Source: Catellatospora paridis
GTDB taxonomy: Bacteria > Actinomycetota > Actinomycetes > Mycobacteriales > Micromonosporaceae
Assembly: GCF_009720365.1 (NCBI RefSeq)
Contig: NZ_ML769313.1
Location: 668,591-732,590, forward strand
DNA length: 64,000 nt
Direction: 5' to 3'
Positions 41,900 to 48,506 of the stretch are shown here, in pieces. Every line of letters begins with the position of its first letter. Position 1 is the first letter of the stretch. The notes under the pieces are model-generated. The model saw only the letters and a program-made list of their open reading frames with translations, was not told where the DNA came from and did not search any database. The translations under genes and the position numbers were made by a program.

Positions 41900-42062
41900 T
41901 GCGTCACCAGCCCCGCCAGCTACTCTGCACGTTTTGTACCGGTTGTAAGGCTAACGGCCGAACGACCTTCGACCCGGCACTTCCGCGTACTGCGGCGACT
42001 GCCTTCGTCAGTGCGCCGAGCGGCTGTTGATGCGATTTCGGGGAAATTGCTGTTATACCCGG

Positions 42063-42099
42063 CTGGTTTATGCAATTTCGTTGAAACTGCATAAACCAG
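42063..42099. repeat. AT-rich palindrome, family D
   Basis: Seventeen-base arms (42063-42079 and 42083-42099, CTGGTTTATGCA...) pair with one mismatch around a three-base loop. A smaller dyad GCGATTTC/GAAATTGC lies at 42032-42050. It lies 30 bases after the MacB-like permease stop, so it may serve as its terminator. Confidence 0.75.
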
Positions 42100-42130
42100 G
42101 ACACGAGACGGCTCGGCAAAGGCAGGCGGA

Positions 42131-43333
42131 CTACTGGGTGGCGAGGGCGGCGGTTGGGGACAGGCGGGCGGCGCGCAGCGCGGGATAGAGACCGGCGAGC
42201 ACGCCCACGACGACGGTGACGCCCAGGCCGGCGGCGAGCGCCGAGACTGGCACGGCGACCGGCCAGCCCTGCGTGGTCGCGTACGTGGCGGTGACCGCCG
42301 CGCCGAGGAGCGCCCCGGCGACGCCGCCGAGGCCGGACAGCAGCAGCGCCTCGATGAGGAACTGCACGGCCACGGCCGGCCGGGTCGCGCCGAGCGCCCG
42401 GCGCAGCCCGATCTCGCCGCGCCGCTCCAGCACCGAGATGATCATCGTGTTGGCCACGCCGACGCCGCCCACCAGCAGCGCCACCGCGCCCAGCCCGAGC
42501 AGCAGCGCGGTGAAGGCGCGGTCGGTCGCCTGCTGCGCCGCCAGCGCGTCCGACGGGCGCGACACCCGGGCCGACAGCGGGTCCGCGGGGTTGGCGGTGG
42601 CCGCCAGCACGGCCCGGACCGCGAGCACCTGATCCGGCGCGGCCTGGCAGTACACGGTGGTCGGGTGCCCGTCGTAGCCGAGCCGGGACGCCGCCACCGG
42701 CCCGCCGACCAGCGCCGCGGAGTCGAGCTCGCGGGCCAGTGGCACCGGGTCGAGGATGCCGGCGACGGTGAACCACTGCCCGCCGAGCCACACCTGGGCG
42801 CCGGCGTCGGCGACGCCGAGGCGCTCGGCGGCGGTCGCGCCCAGCACCGTCACCGGGAAGTCGGCCGTGGCCGGGTTGAGCCACGCGCCCGCGGCGACCC
42901 GGCCGCCGACCGTGTCGAGCAGGCCCAGGTCGGCGGCCAGTACGGCGATCGCACCTGACTGCTGCGCCGGGATGCGGTCGTTGCGGTACACCCGCGCCTG
43001 GCGCAGCAGCCCGACGGCGTTCGCCGAGGTGACCGGGCCGATCCGGCGGATCATCGGCACCGCCTCGGCGGGCAGTGCCGCGGGCTCGCCGGAGAACACG
43101 CCCTCGCCCGGGGACACCGTGAGCAGGTTGGTGCCGAGTTTGGCCAGGGTGCGGTCGAGGTCGGCGCGTGACGAGGCGGAGATGCCGAGCACGGCGAGCA
43201 TCGCGGCGATGCCGATGGCGACACCCAGCGCGGACAGCACCACCCGCAGTGGCCGGGTGCGCAGTCCGCTGCCGCCGAGCAGCAGCAGATCCGTGCCGCG
43301 CAGCCGGGCCGGCCGGGGTGCGATGAGAGTCAT
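42131..43333 (-). CDS. MacB-type ABC transporter permease
   Basis: This 400-residue protein starts at the ATG overlapping the ATPase stop. It has an N-terminal membrane helix (GVAIGIAAMLAVLGISASS), a MacB-type extracytoplasmic domain (about 50-270) and three C-terminal helices of FtsX type (ALLLGLGAVALLVGGVGVANTMIISVLERRGEIGLRRALGATR). It forms, with the adaptor and ATPase of this operon, a tripartite-like export system across the cytoplasmic membrane. Confidence 0.94.
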   Translation of the reverse strand: MTLIAPRPARLRGTDLLLLGGSGLRTRPLRVVLSALGVAIGIAAMLAVLGISASSRADLDRTLAKLGTNLLTVSPGEGVFSGEPAALPAEAVPMIRRIGPVTSANAVGLLRQARVYRNDRIPAQQSGAIAVLAADLGLLDTVGGRVAAGAWLNPATADFPVTVLGATAAERLGVADAGAQVWLGGQWFTVAGILDPVPLARELDSAALVGGPVAASRLGYDGHPTTVYCQAAPDQVLAVRAVLAATANPADPLSARVSRPSDALAAQQATDRAFTALLLGLGAVALLVGGVGVANTMIISVLERRGEIGLRRALGATRPAVAVQFLIEALLLSGLGGVAGALLGAAVTATYATTQGWPVAVPVSALAAGLGVTVVVGVLAGLYPALRAARLSPTAALATQ

Positions 43334-44022
43334 GAGGCGTACGCCTTCCGGTCGGCGGTGTCACGGGTGATCCGGCCGTCGCGCATCTCCACCCGGCGCG
43401 GCAGGCTCTGCGCGATGCCCTGGTCGTGAGTGATGACCACGACCGTGGTGCCCGCGGCGTGCGACTGCCGCAGCAGGTCGAGCACCGCCGCCGCGGACAC
43501 CGAGTCGAGGTTGCCCGTCGGCTCGTCGGCCAGGATCACCTCCGGCTGCTTGACCAGGGCACGGGCGATGGCGACGCGCTGGCGTTCGCCGCCGGACAGC
43601 TCGTGCGGGCGGTGCGTGAGCCGCTCGGCGAGGCCCACCTGCCGCAGCGTCTGCGCCGCGCGGGCGCGCCGGGCGGCGCGGGGGACTCCGGTGTAGAGCA
43701 GGCCGTCCGCGACGGCGTCCAGCGCGCGTACGCCCGGGGCCAGGTGGAACTGCTGGAACACGAACCCGATGGCGCGGGCGCGCAGCGCCGACAGTGACCG
43801 GTCGCGCAGCGCGCCGGTGTCGAACCCGGCCACCCGAACGGTGCCCGCGGTCGGCCGGTCGAGCAGGCCGACCAGGTGCAGCAGGGTGGACTTGCCCGAA
43901 CCGGACGGGCCGACGACCGCGACCAGCTCGCCGCGGTCCACGGTCAGGTCGACCCCGTCGATGGCGGTGACCCCGCCGGGATAGGTCCTGGTCACCCCGT
44001 CGAGCTGGAGGACGGCGGTCAT
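43330..44022 (-). CDS. MacB/LolD-type ABC ATPase
   Basis: The 230-residue ATPase has Walker [11 protein letters not shown], signature [15 protein letters not shown], Walker [13 protein letters not shown] and H-loop VVITHD. It overlaps both neighbours by four bases. It powers the permease at 42131. Confidence 0.95.
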
Positions 44023-45203
44023 CGCGGCACCACGATCTGAACGCCCTCGGCCAGCTCGCCCGCGACGACCTCGACCCGCCCGCCGGCGAACAGGCCGGTC
44101 CGCACGGCGACGTAGCGCGTCGTGCCGCCCTGCGCGACCTGCACCCCGTAGCCGCCCTCCGCGAGCGCGACCAGCGCGGTCACCGGCACCGTGAGCACAC
44201 CGTCGCGCCGCTGCGCGGTGAACCGCACGGTCACCCGGCCCGCCGCGCCGTCCACCGCGGACTGGTCGGCGACCAGCACGTACACCTCGATCGCCGGTTC
44301 GCCGCCGTCGGACTCGGCGGGCAGGCCCACCCGGTCGACCGTGCCGGGGACCTCCGCCCCGGCGGCCAGGCGCACGGTCACCTCGGTGCCGGGCACGGCG
44401 AGCTGCCGCCGCTGCTCCGTCAGCCGCAGGGTGACCGAGCGGGTCGCGCCGGTGTGGCTGAGCACCTCGCCGTCGGCCGGGTCGCCCACCCGCAGCGCGT
44501 GCGCGGCGATCCGCACCGGCCCCGGCGCGTACACCACCCGCTGCGGTTCCACCGTGCCGGTGTCGGCCAGACCCAGCGACCGCTGCCAGCGCTTCACCGC
44601 CGCCGCGGTCGCCGGGGTGAACGCCGTGTCGACGGTGAGGTCACCCATCCGCAGCGCCCGCAGGTTCGCCTCGAGCTGCCGCACGTCACCGCCGCGGCAA
44701 CCCGTGATCAGCTTCCGGTACGCGGGCAGCGCCCCGTACAGCAGCACCACCGGCTGGTCGTCGACGCGCAGCAGCGGCCGGCCGCGGACCACCGTCGACC
44801 CGACCGGCGCCAGCCAGGTGACCAGGCCCAGCCCACCGCCGCCCGCACCGTCGGCCGGTGCGTCGCCGTCAGCCGCCGGGCGTACGTAACGCAGCGGCAC
44901 CGCCTCGCCGAAGCCGAACTCGCCCTCGACGTCGGTGAAGTCGACCAGGTCACCGCGGGTCACCGCGACCGTCTGCGGCGGCGACGCGATTCCGGCCGGG
45001 GCCGGCTCGCCGTCGCACCCGGTCACCATCCCGACCGCCCCGGCGGCCACCGACCCGAGCACGGCCCGCCTGCCGACCCGAACCCGCCCCAGCCCGCGCG
45101 TGCCGCGCCCGCCGCGACCGAGACCGGCGAGTTCGAGACCACTGTGGTCGAGGCCGGTGCGGTCGCGGCCGGCCGGGTCGGCGCCACGGTTGGAGCCGGT
45201 CAC
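44019..45203 (-). CDS. Membrane-fusion-like adaptor with peptidoglycan-binding domain
   Basis: I start this at GTG 45203, which overlaps the upstream stop as GTGA, giving 394 residues. A Tat-like signal (GRRAVLGSVAAGAVG) ends in lipobox VTGC. The protein has an HlyD-type barrel/lipoyl-like region, a PG_binding_1 motif (VRQLEANLRALRMGDLTVD ... AAVKRWQRSLGLADTG) and C-terminal beta domains ending in VRTGLFAGGRVEVVAGELAEG. This adaptor type accompanies MacB-like ABC pairs in Gram-positive actinobacteria and probably links the exporter to the cell wall. Confidence 0.9.
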   Translation of the reverse strand: MTGSNRGADPAGRDRTGLDHSGLELAGLGRGGRGTRGLGRVRVGRRAVLGSVAAGAVGMVTGCDGEPAPAGIASPPQTVAVTRGDLVDFTDVEGEFGFGEAVPLRYVRPAADGDAPADGAGGGGLGLVTWLAPVGSTVVRGRPLLRVDDQPVVLLYGALPAYRKLITGCRGGDVRQLEANLRALRMGDLTVDTAFTPATAAAVKRWQRSLGLADTGTVEPQRVVYAPGPVRIAAHALRVGDPADGEVLSHTGATRSVTLRLTEQRRQLAVPGTEVTVRLAAGAEVPGTVDRVGLPAESDGGEPAIEVYVLVADQSAVDGAAGRVTVRFTAQRRDGVLTVPVTALVALAEGGYGVQVAQGGTTRYVAVRTGLFAGGRVEVVAGELAEGVQIVVPR

Positions 45204-45751
45204 GGCTTGGGCGCCGCGGTCGGGGCGGGCGGCAGCAGGTTGCGGCACTTCTCCAGCGCCGCCATGGCGGCCTTGTCGTCCTGCCGCAGCCAGTGGTTCA
45301 GCTGCCCCGTCACCGGGTCGGGATCGGGCACGTCGGCGACGCCGTTGTCACGCATGCACTGGGCGTACGCCCGCAGCTTCGTCACGTCGTCGGGCGTGCG
45401 GGGACTGGGCTCGGCCGCCGGCGGCAGGAACTTCGTGCAGCCGTCCAGCGCGGTCTGGAACGAGTCCTTGAGGCCCATGCCCAGGTCGTCCATGGCGTGC
45501 AGCAGCGCGCTGCGGCCCGACTTGTCGCCGGGCACCGGGTCGGGCATGTCCACCACGCCCGCGGCGCGCATGCACGCGACGAAGTCCAGCTCGCGCTGCA
45601 CGGGATCGTCCGACGGCCCGCTGGGCGCGGCGGTGGGGGCGCTCGCGCCGGGCGTGCCCGCCGTCGCGACACCCGGCGAGGCGTCGCCGCCCGAACAGCC
45701 GCTCGCCAGCATCGCCAGCATCAGCACCGCGCTCCACCTGCGTGTACGCAT
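45200..45751 (-). CDS. Lipoprotein with repeated Cys motif
   Basis: This 183-residue protein has a lipoprotein signal (lipobox ASGC). It has two similar segments, FVACMRAAGVVDMPDPVPG and YAQCMRDNGVADVPDPDPV, each followed by a helix ending in a Cys (ALDGCTKF, ALEKCRNL). The duplication and paired Cys suggest two disulfide-linked units. It is the first gene of the adaptor/ABC operon and lies divergent from the sigma factor, so it may act as the extracytoplasmic sensor or cargo-binding part. The function is unknown. Confidence 0.88.
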   Translation of the reverse strand: MRTRRWSAVLMLAMLASGCSGGDASPGVATAGTPGASAPTAAPSGPSDDPVQRELDFVACMRAAGVVDMPDPVPGDKSGRSALLHAMDDLGMGLKDSFQTALDGCTKFLPPAAEPSPRTPDDVTKLRAYAQCMRDNGVADVPDPDPVTGQLNHWLRQDDKAAMAALEKCRNLLPPAPTAAPKP

Positions 45752-45795
45752 CGTCTATGGTCCTCTCCGAAAGCGCGGTGGGTTCCGCGCCGGGC

Positions 45796-45830
45796 AAGAC
45801 ACGTAGCGCTCGCCCCAGCGGGTTGCCCGG
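45796..45830 (-). promoter_or_regulatory. ECF-type promoter of the lipoprotein/adaptor/ABC operon
   Basis: On the minus strand, CCGGGCAACC (45821-45830), 17 bases and CGTGTCTT (45796-45803) form a -35/-10 pair. The operon start codon lies about 45 bases downstream. The identical boxes and spacing drive the divergent sigma gene. Confidence 0.75.
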
Positions 45831-45868
45831 TGCCGGAGCGCAGCGGCTGTGGCGGTGGTCATAGCGCG

Positions 45869-45903
45869 CCGGGCAACCTGGCGGGGTCCGGGCTCCGTGT
45901 CTT
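45869..45903 (+). promoter_or_regulatory. ECF-type promoter of the sigma-factor operon
   Basis: CCGGGCAACC (45869-45878), exactly 17 bases and CGTGTCTT (45896-45903). It lies 63 bases upstream of the chosen GTG start and matches the divergent promoter box for box, which suggests autoregulation. Confidence 0.75.
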
Positions 45904-45966
45904 ACCCGCGCACCGCCCATGGGGGCGGTCAGGGACGGCGCGACGCGGAACGTGAGGTGGCACGCG

Positions 45967-46515
45967 GTGGGGTTGCTGGGATGGCGGGACCGCCGCGCCC
46001 ACGAGGCCGACTTCGTCGCGTTCTACACCGAGCGCGGCGACCACCTGCGCAACACGGCGTACCTGCTGTGCCGGGACTGGCACCTGGCCGAGGACCTGAC
46101 CCAGACCGTGTTCACCAAGCTCTACCGGGCCTGGCATCGCATCGACCGGCACGACGCACTCGACCAGTACGCGCGTCGGGTGCTGCTGCGCGCGTTCCTG
46201 GACGAGCGGCGGCGGCCGTGGCGGCGCGAGTACGCCACCGAACCCGGCAGCGCCGCGCTGGACAGCACGGTGCGCGACTCCTACGCCGACGACGGCTCCG
46301 CGCTGCACGCCGCGCTGGTCCGGCTGCCGCGCCGACGACGTGCGGTGCTGGTGCTGCGCTTCTGGGCGGACATGTCGGTCGAGCAGGTGGCCGAGGCGAT
46401 GGAATGCTCCACCGGCACGGTCAAGAGTCAGACCGCCCGCGGCCTGGCTCAGCTGCGTGAACTGCTCGGCGACAGCACTGTCGGCACCGACGGACATCCG
46501 TGGGGGAATCGATGA
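45967..46515 (+). CDS. SigE-family RNA polymerase sigma factor
   Basis: I choose GTG 45967 with a GAGG site over ATG 45919, which would leave almost no leader after the promoter. The product is 182 residues. Region 2 reads FVAFYTERGDHLRNTAYLLCRDWHLAEDLTQTVFTKLYRAW and region 4 ALVRLPRRRRAVLVLRFWADMSVEQVAEAMECSTGTVKSQTARGLAQLREL. This is the SigE-70 family pattern. It overlaps the next gene by four bases. The conserved promoter in front of it also occurs before the divergent export operon. Confidence 0.94.
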   Translation: MGLLGWRDRRAHEADFVAFYTERGDHLRNTAYLLCRDWHLAEDLTQTVFTKLYRAWHRIDRHDALDQYARRVLLRAFLDERRRPWRREYATEPGSAALDSTVRDSYADDGSALHAALVRLPRRRRAVLVLRFWADMSVEQVAEAMECSTGTVKSQTARGLAQLRELLGDSTVGTDGHPWGNR

Positions 46516-47324
46516 ACGACGTGAAGGACCTCTGCGAGCGGATCCTCGACCAGCCCGCGCCCCCGCTACGCGACGGCGCCCAGGTGCTGGCCGTCGCCCG
46601 GCACGCGGCGCAGCGGCGCGCCCGGCTCACCGCCGCGGTCGGCGGACTGGCCTGCACCGCCGTGGCCGCGGTGGTGGTGACGGCGGCACTGCCCCGGACC
46701 ACCGGGGAACTTCCCGTCGCGCAGCCTCCGTCGGCCACCGCCCTCGTGTCCGCGGCGGCGGTGCCGCCGGTGCCGGGGCCCGACGCCGCCCAGGCGCACG
46801 GCGGGCGCATCGCCCAGCTGCTGGCCGACGCGGTGCCGGCGGGATACACGAGCAGGCCGGCCGACGCGACCTCCACCTGGCGGTTGGACACCGCGGCGAC
46901 GCCCCGCTACATCTCGCAGACCCGGCTCATCGTCTCCGACGGCGCGGGCGAGGGGGTGCTGTCGGCGGCGTTCGCGGGCGACGGACACGCCGTGCCGGAC
47001 GGTGACCTCTGCGCCGCCGCGGTGACCGACCGGCTCGCCGAGTACAGCTCCGCCGGGCCCGGCACCTGCGCCGTGATGTCGGTCGGCGGTGCGGCGGTGC
47101 GCGTCGACACCACCGCCGACCGGGCCGTCGCCGCCACCCGGTTCCTGGCGGGCGGGTACCTCACCATCCGGTGGAGCCCCATGACCTGGTCCACCGTGTC
47201 GCCGTCGGCGAGCGCCCAGCCGTGGACGGTGCTGGACGGCGGCGGCCGTCCCGCGGTGGACGCGGCCACGTTCACTCAGGCCGGGCTGGCCGGACTCGCC
47301 GCCGACCCGCGCATGCTGCCCTGA
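46512..47324 (+). CDS. Membrane protein, putative anti-sigma partner
   Basis: ATG 46512 overlaps the sigma stop (ATGA) and gives 270 residues. A short cytoplasmic N-terminus (about 1-38) leads to one membrane helix (LTAAVGGLACTAVAAVVVTAAL). A large extracytoplasmic domain with conserved Cys residues (GDLCAAAVT, GPGTCAVMS) follows. This topology and coupling with the SigE-family gene suggest an anti-sigma factor or sensor. No ZAS zinc motif is seen, so the family assignment is by position. Confidence 0.82.
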   Translation: MNDVKDLCERILDQPAPPLRDGAQVLAVARHAAQRRARLTAAVGGLACTAVAAVVVTAALPRTTGELPVAQPPSATALVSAAAVPPVPGPDAAQAHGGRIAQLLADAVPAGYTSRPADATSTWRLDTAATPRYISQTRLIVSDGAGEGVLSAAFAGDGHAVPDGDLCAAAVTDRLAEYSSAGPGTCAVMSVGGAAVRVDTTADRAVAATRFLAGGYLTIRWSPMTWSTVSPSASAQPWTVLDGGGRPAVDAATFTQAGLAGLAADPRMLP

Positions 47325-47327
47325 CGA

Positions 47328-48362
47328 TCATGGGCGGATGAGCACCTTGAGCGCCTTGCGGTCGGCCATCGCCTGGTAGCCGCCGGGCACCCCGTCGAGG
47401 CCGATCGTGGTGTCGAACACCCGGCCGGGCTCCACGCTGCCGTCGAGCACGTCGGGCAGCAGCTGCTCGATGTAGGCGCGGGCCGGGGCGACGCCGCCGG
47501 TGAGCGTGACGTTGCGGAAGAACACCGGAAGGCCCAGCGGCACCTCCGGATACTGCGGCGCGCCCACCCGGCTCACCTTGCCCCCGGCTCGGGCCACGGC
47601 GAGCGCCGTCTCGATGGCGGTCAGCAGGCCCACGCATTCCAGCACGGCGTGGGAGCCGTCGCCGCCGGTCAGCTCCAGCACCTTCGCGACGCCCTCGTCG
47701 CCGCGCTCGGCCACCACGTCGGTCGCGCCGAAGTCGCGCCCCAGGTCGGTGCGCCCCTGGTGGCGGCCCATGAGGATGATCTGTTCCGCGCCGAGCCGCT
47801 TGGCGGCCAGCACCGCGCACAGGCCGACCGCGCCGTCGCCGATCACGGTCACCGTCGTGCCCGGGCCGACTCCGGCGGTGACCGCGCAGTGGTGGCCGGT
47901 CGGGAACACGTCCGACAGCGACAGCAGCGAAGGCAGCAACGCCGAATCCTCGCCGACGGGCAGCTTGACCAGCGTGCCCTGAGCCTGCGGCACGCGGACC
48001 GCCTCGCCCTGGCCGCCGTCGACGCCGTTCGCACCCCAGAAGCCGCCGTGGCGGCAGGAGGTCTGCAGGCCCTCGCGGCAGAAGTCGCAGGTGTTGTCGG
48101 CCCAGACGAACGGCGCGACCACGACGTCGCCCTTCTTCAGCCCGGAGACGTCCGCGCCGACGTCCTCGACGACGCCGAGGAACTCGTGGCCGATCCGGTC
48201 GCCCTGCTCGCTGGCCGGTCGTGACCCGTAGGGCCACAGGTCGCTGCCGCAGATGCAGGAGCGCAGCACGCGTACGAGGGCGTCGGTGGGCTCGCGCAGC
48301 ACCGGGTCGGGCACGTCCTCCACCCGTACGTCACCGGCACCGTAGATCAACGTGGCTCGCAT
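47328..48362 (-). CDS. Zinc-dependent alcohol dehydrogenase (MDR family)
   Basis: This 344-residue enzyme starts at ATG 48362 after GGGGAG. Catalytic zinc ligands appear in CICGSDLWPY and GHEFLGVVEDVG. The structural-zinc loop reads WADNTCDFCREGLQTSC, with three Cys and an Asp at the first position. The Rossmann motif is VTVIGDGAVGLCAVLAAKRLGA. It oxidises or reduces an alcohol or aldehyde with NAD(P). It sits alone and converges with the anti-sigma-like gene. Confidence 0.93.
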   Translation of the reverse strand: MRATLIYGAGDVRVEDVPDPVLREPTDALVRVLRSCICGSDLWPYGSRPASEQGDRIGHEFLGVVEDVGADVSGLKKGDVVVAPFVWADNTCDFCREGLQTSCRHGGFWGANGVDGGQGEAVRVPQAQGTLVKLPVGEDSALLPSLLSLSDVFPTGHHCAVTAGVGPGTTVTVIGDGAVGLCAVLAAKRLGAEQIILMGRHQGRTDLGRDFGATDVVAERGDEGVAKVLELTGGDGSHAVLECVGLLTAIETALAVARAGGKVSRVGAPQYPEVPLGLPVFFRNVTLTGGVAPARAYIEQLLPDVLDGSVEPGRVFDTTIGLDGVPGGYQAMADRKALKVLIRP

Positions 48363-48474
48363 GGGTCTCCCCGTTCCGTGGTCGTCGCAGGCACGGCCGA
48401 GGCCGGACCTGGTCCAACGATCAGTATCGGGGCGGGAAGGATGCCATACCCGGTCAATGACGGCATTCCGTGCG

Positions 48475-48506
48475 GCGGCCCGGGCAGGGGAGGACGCCCG
48501 GGCCGC
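48475..48506 (-). terminator. Hairpin terminator after the Bax-inhibitor-1 gene
   Basis: Perfect 11-base arms (48475-48485 and 48496-48506, GCGGCCCGGGC) start 11 bases past the stop of the minus-strand gene. Confidence 0.75.

Follow-up and report, generated by a model that had tools for sequence, protein, structure and literature searches.

The question raised by this locus is whether one ECF sigma factor serves both its own operon and a divergent exporter operon through two mirrored promoters with the same boxes. The window, i.e. the whole stretch of DNA analysed, was 64,000 nucleotides in length and was derived from Catellatospora paridis. As the best explanation, a local two-promoter circuit is proposed, in which a single ECF sigma factor would drive its own operon and the exporter, and a probability of about 0.8 is assigned to this reading. 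The boxes, their conservation, the gene layout and the co-presence of the box and the sigma gene are the observed part of this circuit.

Genes of the locus

The gene content was determined by the inspection of open reading frames and by family searches, and both divergent units were as the preliminary description gave them, i.e. a sigma gene with an overlapping gene for a membrane protein and, on the other side, a lipoprotein-adaptor-ATPase-permease operon:

45919-46515, + strand, ECF sigma factor, TIGR02983 (155.4 bits, cut-off 141.55)
46512-47324, + strand, putative membrane anti-sigma factor, its ATG overlapping the sigma stop (ATGA), no family match
45200-45751, - strand, lipoprotein, first gene of the exporter operon, lipobox judged by eye, no family match
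44019-45248, - strand, adaptor-like protein with PG_binding_1, start codon doubtful
43330-44022, - strand, ABC transporter ATPase (MacB/LolD/FtsE-like), family match
42131-43333, - strand, permease with MacB_PCD and FtsX domains, family match

The sigma factor contained Sigma70_r2 at 36-102 and Sigma70_r4_2 at 128-179 and no further sigma domain (E 0.001). Sigma2 and sigma4 only, with a linker of less than 50 residues, are the layout of ECF (group IV) factors, and candidate promoters of the matching kind (AAC at -35, CGT at -10) preceded both its own gene and the divergent operon. The score above the curated cut-off places it in TIGR02983 (SigE-fam_strep). Two start candidates were found, i.e. 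the longest ATG at 45919 and a GTG at 45967 preceded by GAGGTGG. Across five orthologous loci, between 61 and 76 bases separated the -10 box and the conserved CTGGGATGG; given GAGGTGG and this variation, the ATG is less likely and the GTG more likely to be the start.

PF12704, PF02687 and PF00005 all scored above their cut-offs in the exporter operon, which gives the permease and the ATPase a MacAB-type assignment; the adaptor reached 33.1 bits against RND_mfp (cut-off 94.9) and does not qualify as a MacA/RND_mfp adaptor. Its start codon is doubtful because the orthologue in genome G009 aligns from residue 56 only. The labels of the lipoprotein and the membrane protein were read from the sequence, without family-model support. 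The lipoprotein (45200-45751) carried a repeated CMRxxGVxDxPDP-like motif and had no family match, yet it stands first in a widespread exporter cassette; its predicted structure was helical (pTM 0.43).

The candidate promoter pair and its rarity

By sequence inspection, CCGGGCAACC, 17 nt and CGTGTCTT were located at 45869-45903 on the + strand and, mirrored, at 45830-45796 on the - strand:

45869-45878, + strand, -35 box (CCGGGCAACC) of the sigma promoter, GGGCAACC invariant in 5/5 orthologous loci
45879-45895, + strand, 17-nt spacer of the sigma promoter, constant in length and variable in sequence in 5/5
45896-45903, + strand, -10 box (CGTGTCTT) of the sigma promoter, CGTGT invariant in 5/5, CGTGTTCC in G009
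45821-45830, - strand, -35 box (CCGGGCAACC) of the exporter operon promoter, GGCAACC(CG) retained in 5/5
45804-45820, - strand, 17-nt spacer of the exporter operon promoter, length retained in 5/5
45796-45803, - strand, -10 box (CGTGTCTT) of the exporter operon promoter, CGTGTCT retained in 5/5

The identical boxes, the mirror orientation and the spacing of exactly 17 bases on both sides, as first described, were correct to the base, and the span of 45796..45903 was exact. A sigma-70 promoter and an intrinsic terminator were sought in 45600-46100 and none was found, and a search of 42000-48500 against Rfam gave no match at gathering scores.

The pair could also lack promoter function and be a chance resemblance, or its two halves could descend from one GC-rich stretch that was duplicated. 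In favour of such an origin, the loose core CAACC-N16-19-CGTNTC is weak as a single site and not significant in the window (two sites against 0.61 expected; at least two in 12 of 100 shuffles). The pair as a whole is rare by chance: mirrored identical boxes of 10+8 with an equal spacing of 14-20 appeared in one of 20,000 first-order random sequences of 167 bases, and mirrored boxes of 6+6 were recorded for comparison in 49 of 2,000. A copied stretch is unlikely because the two spacers are dissimilar.

Conservation in the genus, family and class

The twin core was searched as CAACC-N17-CGTGT in both directions, with 30-60 between, in 354 genomes of the family. It was found in five of them, once each and always at the orthologous locus, while the reversed-pattern controls gave none; all five genomes belong to the genus of the window (11 genomes). 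Among 394 genomes drawn from the class, the twin core with 20-50 between was found in one, the window's own. The six-gene locus was present in the same number of genus genomes (5/11) with identical gene order, and both promoters with 17-nt spacers were retained in all five loci; the absence of the boxes from orthologous loci, named in the preliminary description as the result that would speak against it, was therefore looked for and not encountered. In the six other genus genomes the identity of the best sigma match was 47-59%; for the lipoprotein it did not exceed 47%, and G001 gave no match. By these matches, the sigma gene and the exporter cassette are present or absent together across the genus.

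In the five aligned intergenic regions, 29 of 36 box positions and 9 of 34 spacer positions were invariant (Fisher p ~1e-5, for rows that are related by descent), the exception among the boxes being the sigma promoter of G009, which ends in CGTGTTCC. Of the remaining intergenic positions 79/190 were invariant. When the box mask was moved around the region as a circle, 5 of its 226 placements scored as high as the true one, which is counted among the five. The contrast with the whole region is milder because the lipoprotein leader and a central element were also kept. In the leader (45752-45795), 32 of 44 positions were invariant in the five genomes, a conservation extending beyond the ribosome-binding site. 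The conservation of this flanking leader would suit a duplicated or accidental origin of the boxes, against which the boxes have been held while the spacers drifted at constant length. Taken with the rarity of the mirrored pair, an origin of this kind without promoter function is regarded as highly improbable.

Exporter cassettes with and without a sigma gene

The sibling exporter cassettes were used as a natural control for the two-promoter circuit. Relatives of the lipoprotein were found in 33 of 61 genomes, and 30 of their loci were examined, i.e. five sigma-linked ones and 25 others. AACC-N17-CGTGTCT stood upstream of the lipoprotein gene in all five sigma-linked cassettes. In the stretch examined around the 25 others, the adaptor was found in 25, the ATPase in 23 and a sigma relative in none, and AACC-N14-19-CGT was found within ~220 bases in only one of these cassettes without a sigma gene (L178, a weak site). 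The five genomes also held further lipoprotein homologues; the 10 examined of the 13 listed were full four-gene cassettes, and none had AACC-N14-19-CGT within 300 bases. The candidate box tracks the adjacent sigma gene. The proposed link between the sigma factor and the exporter is probably right: it is supported by the presence of the boxes at 5/5 orthologous loci and their near absence from cassettes without the sigma gene (1/25 and 0/10).

Related sigma genes and possible autoregulation

The best-match loci of the sigma factor were taken from 29 of 60 other genomes, and CAACC-Nx-CGT was sought in the 200 bases that precede the aligned start; four orthologues were excluded and 25 non-orthologous relatives remained. 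CAACC-N17-CGT was found in the sense direction in 17/25 and in the antisense direction in 0/25. The 17-spaced box was missing in eight, including L046 with an identity of 67%. CGTGTC was found in three (L045, L047 and L048), and a second sigma gene of G004 carried GCAACC-N17-CCGTGTC. In the 8.97-Mb genome of the window (G000), 118 TIGR02983 matches were obtained, of which 42 were above the cut-off. Among the best 30 of the 118, the sense spacing was 16 in seven and 17 in four, and there was one antisense site spaced by 17 and one spaced by 14. It is among the nearer sigma relatives that candidate promoters habitually have a spacing of 17. Several near neighbours were noticed among the TIGR02983 genes of G000, on contigs 4 and 16.

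Autoregulation is frequent among ECF factors, with an estimate of ~55% in the excerpts of PMC8103513, and is likewise described in the excerpts of PMC3817407. The suggestion that the sigma factor regulates itself fits the present data, since 17/25 relatives carry a 17-spaced candidate box before themselves and none carries it antisense. The recognition sequence was claimed too strongly as that of this sigma factor: the core, even CGTGTC, precedes L045, L047, L048 and the second sigma gene of G004, and being common to sigma relatives it is not private to this sigma factor.

Since the core is common to other sigma genes, another sigma could read the boxes. They might thus be real ECF promoters for which other SigE-family sigma factors are wholly or partly responsible, and the locus a node in an overlapping network instead of a private loop. 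The 42 matches above the cut-off, the similar cores before related sigma genes such as the second one of G004, and the many sigma-E promoters of S. coelicolor that are only partly sigma-E-dependent according to the excerpts of PMC6767563 all point in this direction. The co-occurrence of the box and the sigma gene, the sibling cassettes without the box in the same cells, and the more frequent spacing of 16 (seven) than of 17 (four) among the 30 best own-genome paralogues point away from it, and such a network is considered rather unlikely.

Reach of the candidate regulon

Exact CAACC-N17-CGTGTC was found at four sites in the 8.97-Mb genome, i.e. the twin and two sites inside apparent genes, as judged from the reading frames and GC3. 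Because these other two copies lie within apparent genes, the stringent regulon is one locus, and no wider regulon emerged from the exact core; on this point the preliminary description went too far. Weaker regulon sites may exist elsewhere in the genome. An exact scan for GCAACC-N15-19-CGTGTC gave nine sites: the twin, two with 16-nt spacers before SigE-family sigma genes (L005 and L006), one (L009) with a spacer of 16 nt and 36 bases before a lipoprotein-like gene, and four that were inside apparent genes or for which a crude gene call based on GC3 showed no clear gene downstream. The L009 site (1501-1564, GCAACC-N16-CGTGTC) is a possible target of a paralogous sigma factor that uses a spacing of 16. 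A relaxed scan with two mismatches was too noisy to define a wider regulon (271 sites against 170 with the reversed pattern).

The exact sites in the genus numbered 29. With the twin left aside, visual comparison showed only two sets of similar sites among them, i.e. those at sigma genes in G004 and G007, and another, likewise spaced by 17, that G005, G009 and G010 have in common (L193, L199 and L192, respectively). The latter was rejected as a target, since it is seen both where the sigma orthologue is present and where it is absent, and no clear gene follows it.

The element between the promoters

A conserved element that the preliminary description had overlooked was found between the two -35 boxes:

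45845-45864, no strand assigned, third conserved element GGCTGTGGCGGTGGTCATAG, imperfect dyad, 5/5 loci

GGCTGTGGYGRTSGTCATAG (45845-45864) was present in all five loci, with A as the last base in G004, and 15 of 21 positions of 45846-45866 were invariant. It preceded the CAACC of the sigma promoter by 11 nt in 5/5 and lay 19-20 nt from the other promoter. No further exact match was found in the 11 genus genomes, and for loose matches the reversed pattern gave as many or more in most of them. The match with one mismatch in the window's genome coincides with a start codon, that of an apparent FAD oxidoreductase (a name taken from the N-terminal motif), and the same holds for three similar matches with two mismatches. 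A short ORF beginning at the element on the minus strand was considered as well and rejected, as the 35-codon frame occurred in three of the five genomes and was lost in G004 and G009.

Two roles are conceivable for the element, that of an operator and that of an upstream contact site for the sigma promoter. A second regulator that bound here and controlled either promoter, or both, alongside the sigma factor would account for the element's retention in 5/5 loci, the 15/21 invariant positions and the constant 11 nt from CAACC. Such a regulator is improbable: a second exact site was absent from the 11 genus genomes, loose matches did not rise above the reversed control in most, and the six-gene unit is without a transcription-factor gene. 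The dyad may itself be accidental, because its one-mismatch relative is a start-codon context.

The putative anti-sigma partner

The protein of the gene overlapping the sigma gene showed one apparent membrane helix and a cytoplasmic segment of ~40 residues, both read from the sequence. Its N-terminus was conserved in eight relatives, and the gene was conserved alongside the sigma gene. No match to the anti-sigma families was obtained, nor any Pfam match up to an E value of 5. Helices at 3-13 and 22-42 were modelled in the N-terminal part (pLDDT ~50), and the outer domain was modelled partly with good confidence; a fold search with the model gave a best E of 0.013 and no match at E <= 0.001. 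A lower limit of 50 residues was used for the class I anti-sigma domain in the excerpts of PMC7406223, and the segment of ~40 residues falls short of at least 50. It is of the size described there for class II (CnrY-like) anti-sigma factors, and a possible likeness to them consists of the two predicted helices in the short cytoplasmic segment, modelled with low confidence.

Similar alliances in other genera

Related exporter genes were found beside SigE-family sigma genes in two further genera, at one locus each:

L224, 3292-8666, SigE-family sigma gene beside related exporter genes, co-directional
L114, 3753-6493, SigE-family sigma gene beside related exporter genes, co-directional

In L114 (genome G016), relatives of the adaptor and the permease directly precede a sigma gene of the same orientation, and CAACC-N17-CGTG stands between the permease and the sigma gene. 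In L224 (genome G025), a full lipoprotein-adaptor-ATPase-permease cassette followed the sigma gene after ~1.5 kb on the same strand, and the stretch of this cassette examined contained no CAACC-N14-19-CGT site. Among the 16 non-orthologous loci with wider flanks (L109-L124), only L114 had exporter relatives near the sigma gene. The two arrangements suggest a recurrent functional tie between SigE-family sigma factors and the exporter.

Proposed circuit and comparison with known systems

For the two-promoter circuit, we infer that the sigma factor reads the boxes, that the partner is its anti-sigma factor and which function the exporter pump has. At rest, the membrane protein from the overlapping gene would hold the sigma factor, and an envelope signal would release it. 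RNA polymerase with the sigma factor would then initiate at both mirrored promoters. The sigma promoter would provide positive feedback, which would also remake the inhibitor, and the lipoprotein-adaptor-ATPase-permease operon would supply a MacAB-like export or envelope-protection pump. Several observations weigh against the circuit: the eight sigma relatives without a 17-spaced box, the equally high score of other placements of the box mask, the occurrence of the core before other sigma genes, the deviating -10 box in G009, the lack of an anti-sigma family match for the partner and the L224 cassette without a CAACC-N14-19-CGT site. If this is true, the locus offers a compact sigma/promoter pair and a route to what the lipoprotein-PG_binding-MacB cassette responds to. 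A likely target is given to one of the 42 SigE-family sigma factors above the cut-off in the genome, and sibling cassettes without both the sigma gene and the box are available as a natural control.

A broader account is put forward tentatively and is, as a whole, doubtful: in one genus a SigE-family sigma/anti-sigma pair would have brought a single copy of the widespread lipoprotein-exporter cassette under its control by giving it the pair's own promoter, forming a nearly private circuit; related sigma factors would be allied likewise in other orientations and genera (L114 and L224), and the third, rigidly phased element would add the input of a second regulator.

The putative promoter pair consists of real, conserved ECF-type sequences joining the sigma factor with the neighbouring exporter operon. 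No publication on this locus was found in a literature search, the ECF group classifications being outside its scope. With the autoregulated ECF sigma/anti-sigma operons in the excerpts of PMC8103513 and PMC3817407, the locus shares AAC at -35, CGT at -10, sigma2 and sigma4 only, a downstream membrane partner and the box on its own promoter; unlike them, as far as they are described there, it has a second mirrored copy before a divergent exporter operon and a partner without a known anti-sigma domain. The candidate -35 element GGCAACC and a -10 element ending in TCTT are common to it and to sigma-E promoters of S. coelicolor such as hrdD in the excerpts of PMC6767563, where CGTCTT follows after 16 nt as printed, whereas here CGTGTCTT follows after 17. 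Sigma-E of S. coelicolor serves a large regulon and is itself under CseBC control according to the excerpts of PMC8999054, whereas an overlapping putative anti-sigma gene and a stringent regulon of one locus are found here. MacAB-type ABC exporters share the MacB_PCD/FtsX permease and the MacB/LolD-like ATPase with this operon, but here the ATPase and the permease are encoded by two genes, the adaptor falls well short of the RND_mfp cut-off and carries PG_binding_1, and an extra lipoprotein heads the operon. This type of control is already known, and the locus appears to be a solid, unexceptional instance of it.
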